From: Candidatus Omnitrophota bacterium
GTDB lineage: Bacteria > Omnitrophota > Koll11 > Aquiviventales > Aquiviventaceae
DNA: 14,925 nucleotides
Direction: 5' to 3'
NCBI GenBank assembly: GCA_016196415.1
Contig: JACPXS010000054.1
Location: 1 to 14,925 of the forward strand
A model generated the notes under the pieces. It made no database searches. It was not told the DNA's origin and worked only from the letters and a program-made list of their open reading frames with translations. This document shows positions 3,567-13,208 of the stretch, one piece after another; position 1 is the stretch's first letter, and each line of letters opens with the position of its first letter. The translations under genes and the position numbers were made by a program.

Positions 3567-4031
3567 TCACCGCACGGTGAGATAGTCCGCCAACGCGTCG
3601 CAGGTTTTTGGCCCGATCCCTGGAACCTGCGAGAGCTCCTCGGCCCGGTGGAATGGACCGTGACGGTCGCGATACGCCACAATCCGCTTGGCCAGGGTCG
3701 GCCCCACACCAGGTAAGCGCTCCAATTCTGCAATACCGGCCGTATTGACGTCAACTCCTCTCGCATGCCGCAGCGCCTGATCCCAGGTGGTTGACTCCAC
3801 CGGCTCACGGCGGGCCGACTCACGCTGCCTACCGTACCTGATCGCATGGCTGGTTGACCCATCCCCAGGCGGCGGTTGATCTGGCACGCTATCCGGGGGC
3901 GCGACGGAGGCGCTTCTCCTGATCCTGAAGGGTGGCTGCTGTCGCTGCCAGAGCAACGTCCCCGCCCCCAGCACCAGCAGGGCTCCGAGCCACGTCAACG
4001 TCTTTCGTTCCTGCTCCGTGAAATCCACCAT
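3567..4031 (-). CDS. ComEA-like membrane-anchored helix-hairpin-helix DNA-binding protein
   Basis: This 154-residue protein has a single N-terminal membrane helix (about 11-28), a Pro/Ser/Arg-rich linker (about 30-90), and a C-terminal tandem helix-hairpin-helix domain (93-152). The HhH motifs are LERLPGVGPTLAKRI and LSQVPGIGPKTCDAL, with the typical VDVNTA lead-in. In naturally competent bacteria such proteins hold incoming double-stranded DNA at the membrane or in the periplasm for ComEC. No comEC or pilus gene is visible here. Its ATG shares one base with the leuS stop (TGATG), implying coupling. A frame 14 codons longer exists, but it overlaps leuS and would put residues before the membrane helix for no reason. 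Confidence 0.88.
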   Translation of the reverse strand: MVDFTEQERKTLTWLGALLVLGAGTLLWQRQQPPFRIRRSASVAPPDSVPDQPPPGDGSTSHAIRYGRQRESARREPVESTTWDQALRHARGVDVNTAGIAELERLPGVGPTLAKRIVAYRDRHGPFHRAEELSQVPGIGPKTCDALADYLTVR

Positions 4032-4471
4032 CACACCACAATATTCACCAAGCGCTTCGGCACAACGATACACTGCTTGATGGACCGGCCGTTGACGAAC
4101 TTCTTGACTTGCTCGTGCTCCAGCACGGCCGCGCGCAACTGCTCCTCGCTCGCCTCGGCCGGCACGGTGATTCGCGCGCGAAGTTTCCCATTGACCTGCA
4201 CGACCAACAGCACCGTGGACTCCTCCAACGCCGACGGATCACACGCAGGCCACGGCTCGTGCGCCAGGCTGTTCGGATGCCCAAGGCGCTCCCACAACTC
4301 CTCGCACAGATGCGGGGCAAACGGGGACAGCAGCAGCACAAGGATCTCAACGGCTTGGCGCAGAGCGGTTCGGGGTTGGGGGTGCTGAGGCGGGGGCTGA
4401 TGCGCCATCGGTTCCTGAGACTTCTGACCGGCATCAAGGGCTTCGTACATGGCATTGACCAACTCCATCAT
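4031..4471 (-). pseudogene. leuS: leuS 3' part, out of frame: anticodon-binding and C-terminal domains of leucyl-tRNA synthetase
   Basis: From the ATG at 4471 this frame encodes 146 residues matching the end of bacterial LeuRS. It begins with [12 protein letters not shown] of the anticodon-binding domain, then ILVLLLSPFAPHLCEELWERLG, then the C-terminal domain with VVQVNGKLRARITVPA and the ending VPKRLVNIVV. The frame differs from the upstream leuS frame and opens just after a 7-bp tandem repeat (4477-4497). Normal LeuRS has roughly 40 more residues between the RFLNRVWRL block and this point, including the FNTAIS helix; they are absent. It is either a damaged gene, an assembly error, or a separately translated C-terminal piece (CAGGTG lies just before the ATG, too close for a good ribosome site). 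Its stop overlaps the comEA-like start. Confidence 0.8.
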
Positions 4472-6533
4472 CGCACCTGAACCCTGGACCCTGGACCAGT
4501 TCTCCGAGCCGCCACACGCGGTTGAGAAAGCGGTCCGCCCCCTCGATGCTGCGCGTGCTCCATGGCTTGACCGCCTCCAGCGGTCCCATGAACATCTCAT
4601 AGAGCCGGAAGGCATCCGCGCCATGGGCGGCGATCACCTCGTCCGGGTTCACCACGTTGCCCCTCGATTTGGACATCTTCTCCCCATCCTCGCCGAGGAT
4701 GAGCCCTTGGTTCACGAGCGTGTGAAACGGCTCAGGCGTGGAGACGAGCTTGAGATCGTAGAGGACCTTATGCCAGAACCGCGCGTAGAGCAGATGGAGC
4801 ACCGCGTGCTCCGCGCCGCCGATGTAGAGATCGACCGGCATCCAGTAGCGCTCAAGCGTCGGATCCCACGCGCGCGATGCGTTGCGCGGATCCAGGTAGC
4901 GCAAGTAGTACCAGCAGGAGCCGGCCCACTGCGGCATCGTGTTGGTTTCCCGTTCGGCAGAACCGCGACACGTCGGGCAGGTGGTCTGTTTCCAAGGAGA
5001 ACCGTCTGGATTGTTCGCTCGATCAAGCGGAGCCCCAATGAACGCCTCAGCCCCGGAAGAGGCCACGGGGACGCCGGGTTTGAAATCTGCCATGTCCGGC
5101 AACTGAAGTGGTAACGCGGACTCCGGGAGCGCGACTGGACCCTGACACGCATCGCGGCAGTGCACAATGGGAATGGGCTCGCCCCAATAGCGCTGGCGCG
5201 AGAACAGCCAGTCCCGGAGCTTATAGTTGATCGCCCGCCCCCCGACCCCGCGCGCGTTCAGCCAGTCGGTGATCTTCCCTGTCGCGTCCTCGCTCGAGAG
5301 CCCGGTAAACGGGCCGGAGTCGCGCATCCGACCCGCGTCCGTGTAGGCCTGCGTCAGGCCGGCCAGCTCGAGCGCGCGATCCTCCGGCACGATGACGATG
5401 CGCACATCCAACCCGTAGGTCAGCGCAAACTCAAGATCCCGCTGATCGTGCGCCGGCACCGCCATGATCGCACCTGTCCCGTAGGTGGCGAGCACGTAAT
5501 CCGCGATCCACACGGGAATCTTCTCCTGATTGACCGGGTTGACCGCGTAGGCGCCGGTGAATACCCCGGTTTTCTCCTTGGCGAGCTCGGTGCGTTCCAG
5601 CTCGCCTTTCCGCGACGCCACCGCCCGGTATTGCTCCACCAGGCCCCGCCGCTTTTCCGTCGTGAGGGACGGAACCAGCGGATGCTCAGGGGCGAGCACG
5701 ATGTACGTCGTCCCGAAGAGCGTATCGGGCCGCGTGGTGTAGATCTTCAGCTCCACAGCGTCCGCCCGCCGACGACTGCGCGTGCCGTCAAGGAGGGCAT
5801 CGGGGATCGCCTTGGCGTCGATCGCAAGACCAAACCACACCTCGACGCCTTCGCTCCTGCCGATCCAATGGCGCTGCATGTCCTTAATGTGCGGCGGCCA
5901 GTCCAACCCCTCCAGATCATTGAGCAGCCGATCCGCGTAGGCCGTAATCTTGAGCATCCACTGGCGCATCGGGCGTCGCTCAACCGGATGATTCTTGCGT
6001 TCGCAGCGGCCATCCGCCACTTCTTCGTTGGCCAGCACGGTGCCGCACGAGGGGCACCACCACACCGGCGCGTCGGCCATGTAGGCCAACCCGCGCTCAT
6101 ACAACTTCAGAAAAATCCACTGCGTCCATTTCACGTAGGCCGGATCCGTGGTATCAAGTTCCCGGTCCCAGTCGTACGAAAAACCCAGACGCTTGATTTG
6201 GCGTCTGAAGGTCTCGATGTTCTTGCGCGTCGTCAACGCCGGGTGGGTGCCGGTCTCGATCGCGTATTGCTCGGTGGGCAACCCGAATGCATCCCATCCC
6301 ATGGGATGCAGCACGTTATAGCCCCGCATGCGCCGAAACCGCGCCACGATATCCGTCGCGGTGTACCCTTCGGGATGGCCGACGTGCAACCCCGCGCCTG
6401 ACGGATACGGAAACATGTCCAGCACATAGCACTTGGGCGTTGGGCCGCCATCCACGGCGCGGAAGGTGCGCCGCTCCTCCCAAACCCGCTGCCACTTGGG
6501 CTCGATCTGACGGAATGGATAGTTGTCAGGCAT
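4434..6533 (-). CDS. leuS: leuS 5' part: leucyl-tRNA synthetase catalytic and editing domains, frameshifted near the 3' end
   Basis: LeuRS charges tRNA-Leu with leucine in the cytoplasm. This frame (699 residues, about 678 genuine) holds the HVGH form of the HIGH motif (50-53), two CxxC zinc-type motifs (CPSC and CPTC), the CP1 editing domain with TTRPDT (266-271) and AVPAHDQRD, the [11 protein letters not shown] block and KMSKS (619-623). The start [15 protein letters not shown] is the usual LeuRS beginning, although no clear Shine-Dalgarno precedes it. After [14 protein letters not shown] the reading runs into a 7-bp tandem repeat and then about 20 unrelated residues (ending in CHVRSP) before a stop. 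The remaining domains follow in another frame (4031-4471). Removing one heptamer would join the frames, but about 40 residues would still be missing. The N-terminal part shows no other damage, as expected for an essential gene. Confidence 0.93.
4477..4497. repeat. 7-bp tandem repeat (CTGRACC x3) at the leuS frame break
   Basis: Three consecutive heptamers, CTGAACC (4477-4483), CTGGACC (4484-4490) and CTGGACC (4491-4497), sit exactly where the leuS reading frame is lost. Seven is not a multiple of three, so each gain or loss of a unit changes frame; two copies (or five) would place the upstream frame in register with the downstream one. The encoded residues do not match LeuRS, so the repeat replaces normal coding sequence. 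Confidence 0.8.
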
Positions 6534-6624: not shown

Positions 6625-6990
6625 TCACGCGCAAGGCGGGAGCGCGTTGAGTTTCGCGTACTGCATGATGGCGGTATAGTCCGCTGGATCAATGCGCACG
6701 AACTTCACGCCAAGCTCAGCCGGCGCATCGGCGTACGGCGTTGCCGGCGACCCCATGCGCTTGTACCATACGACCTCGGCGACACACCGGATGGGCGCAG
6801 AGCGATCGGGCAATGCGATCTCCAACTCAAGCCGGGTTCCCAGATGAAACACGCCTGCGACCGCAAGACACGCCCCCCCGCCCCCAATATCCTTCGTGAG
6901 GGCCCGCTGGACCTTGCCGGTTACGATGGTCCGAAGAAACGTGGTGAGGCGGCTTCTCAGCCGAATGGATTGTCGCTGCTCATCGGCCAT
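6625..6990 (-). CDS. PilZ domain protein (second of two paralogues)
   Basis: This is a 121-residue single PilZ domain. The RxxxR motif is R6-R10; the second motif reads DIGGGG (34-39), again with glycine where (D/N)xSxxG has serine. TGKVQRALTKDIGGGGAC and AEVVW align directly with the gene at 198-563, so the two are paralogues within the same gene series. It lies 91 bp upstream of leuS and 71 bp downstream of a membrane-protein gene. No clear Shine-Dalgarno is seen before the ATG at 6990. Its partner could be a motility or envelope system elsewhere, but this is unknown. Confidence 0.85.
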   Translation of the reverse strand: MADEQRQSIRLRSRLTTFLRTIVTGKVQRALTKDIGGGGACLAVAGVFHLGTRLELEIALPDRSAPIRCVAEVVWYKRMGSPATPYADAPAELGVKFVRIDPADYTAIMQYAKLNALPPCA

Positions 6991-13153: not shown

Positions 13154-13208
13154 CCGGGACATGGCTCTTGTCGCTCACGAGGCCATGGCGACAATGGCAA
13201 TGTCCCGG
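13154..13208. repeat. 55-bp imperfect palindrome between slipin and tRNA-Leu
   Basis: The outer arms CCGGGACAT (13154-13162) and ATGTCCCGG (13200-13208) are perfect complements, and so are the inner arms TTGTCGC (13168-13174) and GCGACAA (13188-13194). The five bases between them form a mostly paired internal segment (two mismatches, one G-U), and the loop is 13 nt. There is no T-run. It may be a REP-like element or a Rho-type 3' end for nfeD-slipin; the octamer TCGCTCAC occurs both in the loop side (13171) and just outside (13211). Confidence 0.6.

Follow-up and report, generated by a model that had tools for sequence, protein, structure and literature searches.

The window analyzed here, a stretch of 14,925 nucleotides that seems to make up the whole of contig JACPXS010000054.1 of an Omnitrophota bacterium, encodes leucyl-tRNA synthetase (LeuRS) in two frames, with a heptanucleotide repeat at the point where the frames switch. 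How such a gene should be read is the question that this locus raises: leuS may have been damaged in the cell, misread in sequencing or assembly, superseded by another copy, switched by its repeat, or split into two working chains. Beyond the gene itself, the main interest lies in the class of heptad hairpins that contains the window's repeat.

A leuS gene broken at a heptad array

The features of the broken gene are collected in Table 1. As a first-pass annotation had noted, the two halves of LeuRS lie in different frames: in a LeuRS profile search, ORF2 (4624-4031, minus strand) corresponds to TIGR00396 positions 715-842 of 843, and positions 664-714, which follow directly on the match of ORF1, are found in neither frame. 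ORF1 runs out of frame shortly beyond the tract CCTGAACCCTGGACCCTGGACC, which comprises 3.1 heptamer copies in 22 nt and does stand at the switch point. The frame arithmetic of heptamer loss given in that annotation is also correct, the two frames differing by 1 modulo 3, the same as one 7-nt unit. About 40 residues had been thought missing; a block of the anticodon-binding domain is indeed absent, but the figure is slightly high, 33 residues being lost with the form-B relative P0008 as reference. No direct repeat accounting for both ends of the deletion was seen by eye. The lesion appears recent, because both remaining frames are open and conserved.

Table 1. Positions of the parts of leuS and of its repeats in the window
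Feature	Coordinates	Strand	Description
leuS 5' part (ORF1)	4434..6533	minus	699 codons; catalytic and editing domains; TIGR00396, 905 bits, profile positions 3-663 of 843
leuS 3' part, other frame	4031..4471	minus	146 codons, counted from ATGATG; C-terminal domain, preceded by the end of the anticodon-binding domain; P0121
Loop-1 heptad array	4476..4497	minus	GGTCCAG, GGTCCAG, GGTTCAG and one base; site of arm 1 in form-B relatives
Deletion junction	4472..4476	minus	array abuts the codon preceding MMELVNA
Loop-2 region	4365..4399	minus	degenerate heptads CAGCACC, CCCAACC, CCGAACC; site of arm 2 in form-B relatives

By composition alone the heptad tract is only mildly unusual, its score being reached in dinucleotide shuffles of the window by 2 of 200 at period 7 and by 7 of 200 at any period from 4 to 15. 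We nevertheless regard it as beyond chance, because relatives have heptad arrays at the same position of leuS.

The window's leuS occupies the usual syntenic locus and is not a spare copy, since the gene order matches that of relatives and no second copy is found among the matches listed. The order (ldt, accA, stomatin-like, nfeD-like, nfo, TMEM164-like, Nfu, DUF7847, PilZ, leuS, comEA-like, uvrD) is largely common to relatives, most fully with stretches L125 and L130. Of the 18 genomes for which the end of leuS is covered, 17 have a comEA-like gene downstream of it, at a distance of 1.4 kb or less; in the exception (L086), where none is seen, the stretch stops about 300 nt past leuS. A second leuS, which the first-pass annotation had suggested might lie elsewhere, was found neither in the protein collection, where the best match other than the window's own is 80% identical, nor among the matches listed for the 28 genomes of the order, three of which (G382, G386, G396) have no leuS at all among these matches. 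The two leuS pieces of G306 are non-overlapping halves, and an apparent break in G385 was discarded because its pieces flank a run of N. The nearest matches with a name are from Omnitrophota. PilZ-domain proteins flank the uvrD-leuS block on both sides (198-563 and 6625-6990) and have counterparts in several relatives.

Loop arrays and segment exchange in LeuRS of relatives

Loops were compared in 21 genomes that have the RFLxRxW motif before loop 1. Thirteen have an ordinary loop 1 (form A), and eight (form B: G259, G389, G393, G147, G395, G380, G388, G385) carry loop-1 heptad arrays of about four units, the units themselves varying (GCTCAGG, AGTCCAT, AAGTGAC, GGGGCGA, GGCTCAA, GGGTTCA). The window's leuS belongs to this array-bearing form. 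Heptads in the inverted sense are frequent in loop 2 of form B, with a gap to the loop-1 array of 150 nt in G259 and G393 and of 144 nt in G388. Across the eight loci, loop 1 and loop 2 are more complementary within a genome than between genomes (permutation p 0.0019 for 18-nt and 0.0031 for 24-nt ungapped windows), and the same contrast holds for RNA duplex energy (p 0.049). Pairing is clear in G259, G393, G388 and G385 (19-22 of 24), moderate in G147 (17 of 24) and absent in G389, G395 and G380 (13-14 of 24, against a between-genome mean of 15.2). In about half of the form-B relatives, the two loop arrays are thus the complementary arms of one long-range heptad hairpin. The window's own loops are complementary at 12 of 18 positions, which is background, with no clear pairing.

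In the relatives compared, leuS stays in frame across both loops and no heptad array stands just before MMEL; the aligned relatives all lack the deletion, which answers in the negative whether the missing segment might be absent from them too. In a predicted model of the LeuRS P0005 (pLDDT 81.6; best PDB match Thermus LeuRS, 2bte), the arrays fall at residues 666-678 and 724-731, between helices 647-665, 679-700, 704-723 and 732-746. Judged by this model, the deletion has cost the window's LeuRS the equivalent of helix 679-700 together with the beginning of the helix after it. Because the deletion takes out a helix of the anticodon-binding domain, leuS as assembled is dead and no working LeuRS can be made from it; repairing the frame alone would not yield an enzyme, as the first-pass annotation had anticipated.

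A second case comes from two proteins listed with a 24,530-nt contig, P0003 (729 aa) and P0157 (123 aa), for which only one overlap is possible (8-39 residues, two offsets tried). The DNA implied by this overlap has three GCCCCCA copies in loop 2. Two leuS genes thus have their break at a heptad array, in loop 1 in one gene and in loop 2 in the other, each array having three units. Two more (P0076/P0153 and P0079/P0132) are seemingly broken too, at places that are not arrays. Outside these counts, P0122 and P0133 may have further frame breaks near loop 1.

Some LeuRS matches are unusual in other ways. Two relatives (L085, 3787-3824, and protein P0020) have an extra insert, ESRGVPSAVEG or AGRGVPSEVEG, after CEELWQRLG; its pLDDT is low in the model, and it seems a different small repeat. 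P0018, at 1179 aa, has a long C-terminal extension unlike the lengths of other matches, and one Omnitrophota match (G074:C1:696312-698225) lies inside an open frame of 24,756 aa, a giant gene or a reading error.

The distribution of the two forms, which were assigned chiefly from the length of loop 2, does not follow the N-terminal part of the protein. On a tree of that part (77 rows, 26 of form B), many branches of which are weakly supported, form B takes 21 changes, compared with a mean of 21.8 for shuffled labels, 211 of 500 shuffles being as low. By contrast, the 24-residue stretch between the arrays is form-specific: among 76 proteins (three of a third form excluded), its identity is 82.4% between B proteins, 70.0% between A proteins and 68.5% between the forms, at equal N-terminal identity (78%). 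The within-minus-between difference of this stretch, 4.06, was reached in none of 2000 label shuffles, and that of the N-terminal part, 0.10, in 636 of 2000. P0008 (B) and P0020 (A) are a sister pair; in 40-column blocks, they are 80-100% identical ahead of loop 1, fall to 66, 62 and 62% over the loops and return to 95, 100 and 80% beyond them. Such a sharp drop on both sides is seen in this pair only; P0003 and P0017 can be compared only as far as the break, and more distant pairs, including those of two A proteins, are less alike throughout the C-terminal part. Because form B is scattered on the tree, the inter-array stretch is form-specific and the drop in P0008/P0020 is sharp, we conclude that this stretch has been exchanged as a segment between genomes at least once. 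The two forms could also represent an old polymorphism maintained by recombination. The window deletion falls within the exchanged segment.

Heptad hairpins across the order

Arrays were surveyed in 15 of the 28 genomes of the order, in 40 stretches totaling 660,355 nt that were picked by their matches to leuS or other synthetases, irrespective of arrays. The survey gave 99 tandem arrays of period 7, with harmonics at 14 (72) and 21 (7), compared with 9 at period 8, 5 at 16 and 0-2 at each remaining period between 4 and 20. Three period-7 arrays occur in 80 control loci (696,214 nt), 78 of them from outside the phylum, and none in mononucleotide-shuffled sequence. In 20 stretches of other Omnitrophota (400,000 nt) there are five arrays, confined to two of the 20 genomes. 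Within the order, density ranges from zero in the G158 and G210 stretches to 46 per 100 kb in G388. Array length has its mode at 29-32 nt (73 of 148 arrays).

Most arrays are paired. An inverted partner within 180 nt, defined as at least 17 of 24 positions complementary, accompanies 71 of the 111 arrays of 24-40 nt and is lacking in 40; at a comparison distance of 1.5 kb the figure is 2 of 87. The gap between arms is below 40 nt in 59 of the 71 and 100-160 nt in 8. Mismatches within the paired windows are themselves periodic, their spacing peaking at 7 (111, with 40 at 6 and 37 at 8) and at 14 (52); adjacent mismatches (61) are second commonest. A 24-nt window most often has four or five mismatches, which amounts to one or two in each heptad. 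A run of G is not found in every unit, AATGTCG, GACAAGC and CAGCACA having no run of three G or C, and such units rule out heptad repeats of the G-quadruplex type. A Y1-type transposase (PF01797), as in REP/RAYT systems, was also considered as the mover of the arrays; it occurs in 20 of the 28 genomes of the order and was not found in array-bearing G147, G393 and G297, which are draft genomes, and no clear link was seen.

Many arrays are coding. Codon usage was used to judge this, since open reading frame coverage (0.94) is uninformative where GC-rich stretches are open in many frames. Fifty-seven of 128 arrays sit in a frame that is free of stops and flanked on either side by coding-like codon usage, some of these cases looking antisense (e.g., L165 at 5148, L168 at 10953 and 11009). 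Ten translated array-bearing stretches all gave a Pfam match above the cut-off (D-Ala-D-Ala ligase, Lnt twice, carbon-nitrogen hydrolase, pseudouridine synthase, quinolinate phosphoribosyltransferase, aminoacyl-tRNA editing domain, CysRS, biotin ligase and an Ala_racemase_N protein), and in seven of the ten a single domain match spans the array.

ValRS, whose identity NCBIfam confirmed in the three scanned, carries inserts at four sites. The loop at site 1 is short in 7 of 18 genomes and 66-102 nt long in 11 (two further loci gave none); 10 of the 11 long ones give a better fold than their 100 mononucleotide shuffles (z from -3.1 to -9.3), the other being that of G306 (-0.9). Sites 2 and 3 have hairpins in several genomes, yet not in every long one, and site 4 has a clear hairpin in G388 only (z -6.4), with arrays or long loops without a hairpin elsewhere. 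In a predicted ValRS model (mean pLDDT 71, 16 sequences), inserts 1, 2 and 4 are modeled as coil, mostly below pLDDT 50, and insert 3 as helical in part, with higher scores.

Among 19 distinct coding hairpins, a set that leaves aside two duplicates from L189 and one doubtful antisense case, A.C and G.U mispairs on the sense strand are about equal (20 vs 17), and these counts give no sign of selection on RNA pairing. Because the two kinds of mispair are about equal, we prefer a DNA-level to an mRNA-level process as the source of the hairpins.

Several repeats and hairpins stand apart from these counts. The unit CAGCACA/CTGTGTG recurs in arrays of L114, L129, L157, L158, L159, L165, L168 and L181, often outside clear genes; these are possibly terminators. 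In the window, a period-8 tract, GCGCGTTC (about four copies), lies near an inverted period-8 tract, CAACGCGC, at 2599-2688 by the 5' end of the uvrD frame; the region folds as DNA with z -2.8 and is perhaps a period-8 version of the heptad-hairpin class. Two further hairpins in the window are terminator-like, a perfect 22-bp one with a 4-nt loop at 155-202 and one of 21 bp (86%) at 13154-13208.

Origin of the break and place among known repeats

We consider it probable that an array-bearing form-B leuS at its usual locus suffered a deletion reaching from the array to just before MMELVNA, which removed the helix and shifted the frame, the array being a hot spot. Of the options in the first-pass annotation, replacement of coding DNA by a repeat element comes nearest to this, but arrays recur at the same loop in relatives. 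In form-B LeuRS, two surface loops of the anticodon-binding domain bear the heptads, with the helix encoded in between. Gain or loss of 7-nt units would shift the frame, and single strands able to form hairpins may promote copying errors, so that repeat or hairpin formation could have caused the deletion. Counting against this explanation are the window's loops (12/18), the failure to see by eye a direct repeat at both deletion ends, the three of eight form-B loci that pair at background level and the two leuS genes broken away from arrays.

The gene may be intact in the organism and the break an assembly or amplification error at the repeat or hairpin, to which we give a smaller though appreciable chance: the evidence is a single contig with no same-species relative in the collection, the gene is essential and shows no other lesion, and the junction falls precisely at a repeat of a hairpin-forming class. 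However, the 22-nt tract is shorter than a read, and relatives lack an array before MMEL that could collapse onto loop 1; the independent frame break at the loop-2 array (P0003/P0157), which may itself be an error, also speaks against it. That leuS is a plain pseudogene in a cell relying on another copy agrees with the incomplete enzyme encoded by the gene as read, and is unlikely given the usual gene order and the lack of a second leuS among the matches listed for the 28 genomes.

The first-pass annotation had further proposed that slippage switches full-length LeuRS on and off. A unit length that is not a multiple of three, and arrays that differ in sequence and length between genomes, would suit such a phase-variable gene; the helix, however, is absent whatever the frame, so both states are defective and no change in the repeat can give a working product. 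As leuS is moreover essential and stays in frame across the loops in relatives, we hold this very improbable. A natural split into two working chains, also suggested there with Aquifex as precedent, is if anything more improbable still: although ORF2 has an ATG start and the break lies at a surface loop, both chains lack profile positions 664-714, including the conserved helix, and the two pieces fall short of the whole enzyme that the Aquifex alpha and beta chains cover together.

Returning to deletion at a form-B array, we can only tentatively place it in a wider setting. Heptad hairpins may form a class of elements defined by shape and not by sequence, with two complementary arms of about four heptads whose units turn over, and may have spread in frame among the essential genes of a single Omnitrophota order. 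The element of leuS might be an arm-helix-arm cassette moving between genomes, of which the window would hold a failed copy. During replication, single-stranded hairpins could allow arms to slip by whole units and to be copied from one another; such arm-to-arm copying would preserve complementarity as the unit sequence changes, and the same hairpins might trigger deletions.

Among titles and the beginnings of abstracts, we found no description of heptad hairpins in Omnitrophota. In the tRNA-Leu intron of Nostoc, heptads occur on both sides of a stem and turn over with pairing kept. Unlike this case, which concerns one intron loop, the Omnitrophota hairpins occur at many sites genome-wide and in protein genes. 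Rickettsia palindromic elements (RPEs) are, in the excerpted account of PMC10969869, palindromic DNA lying in frame in unrelated genes, metabolic ones included, and forming families of about 150 bp with a conserved peptide. The heptad hairpins resemble them as in-frame inserts present or absent among relatives (at ValRS site 1 in 18 relatives, not in the window, 10 have the hairpin and 7 are short). They differ in having 7-nt periodic arms of about 30 nt, and in place of a conserved nucleotide or peptide family, units and peptides differ between genomes at the same sites.

Other bacterial heptanucleotide repeats share the 7-nt unit. GGGAATC-type repeats of Xanthomonas and Nostoc show a clear preference for four units (excerpt of PMC4692102); 7-nt repeats have been proposed to favor polymerase slippage, and one inverted repeat is reported for the TAACTGA sets of Beggiatoaceae (excerpt of PMC4679880). 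As far as these excerpts describe them, both groups use few fixed units, mostly outside coding regions (PMC4679880, PMC4692102), whereas the Omnitrophota units are many, not all of them rich in G, and most arrays have an inverted partner. Nematomorpha mitochondria likewise have inverted repeats within functional protein genes, described in part of PMC6649704 as perfect, up to 284 bp long and encoding conserved residues in both arms; the heptad arms, in contrast, encode variable loops and have one to two mismatches per heptad.

If this interpretation is right, essential genes in metagenome contigs may appear broken exactly at such arms, which calls for caution. One lineage would tolerate hairpin DNA at many sites within its most conserved enzymes, with the pairing kept and the sequence free, and would offer a natural setting in which to test how hairpins drive mutation, how arms correct one another and how segments are exchanged in essential genes.
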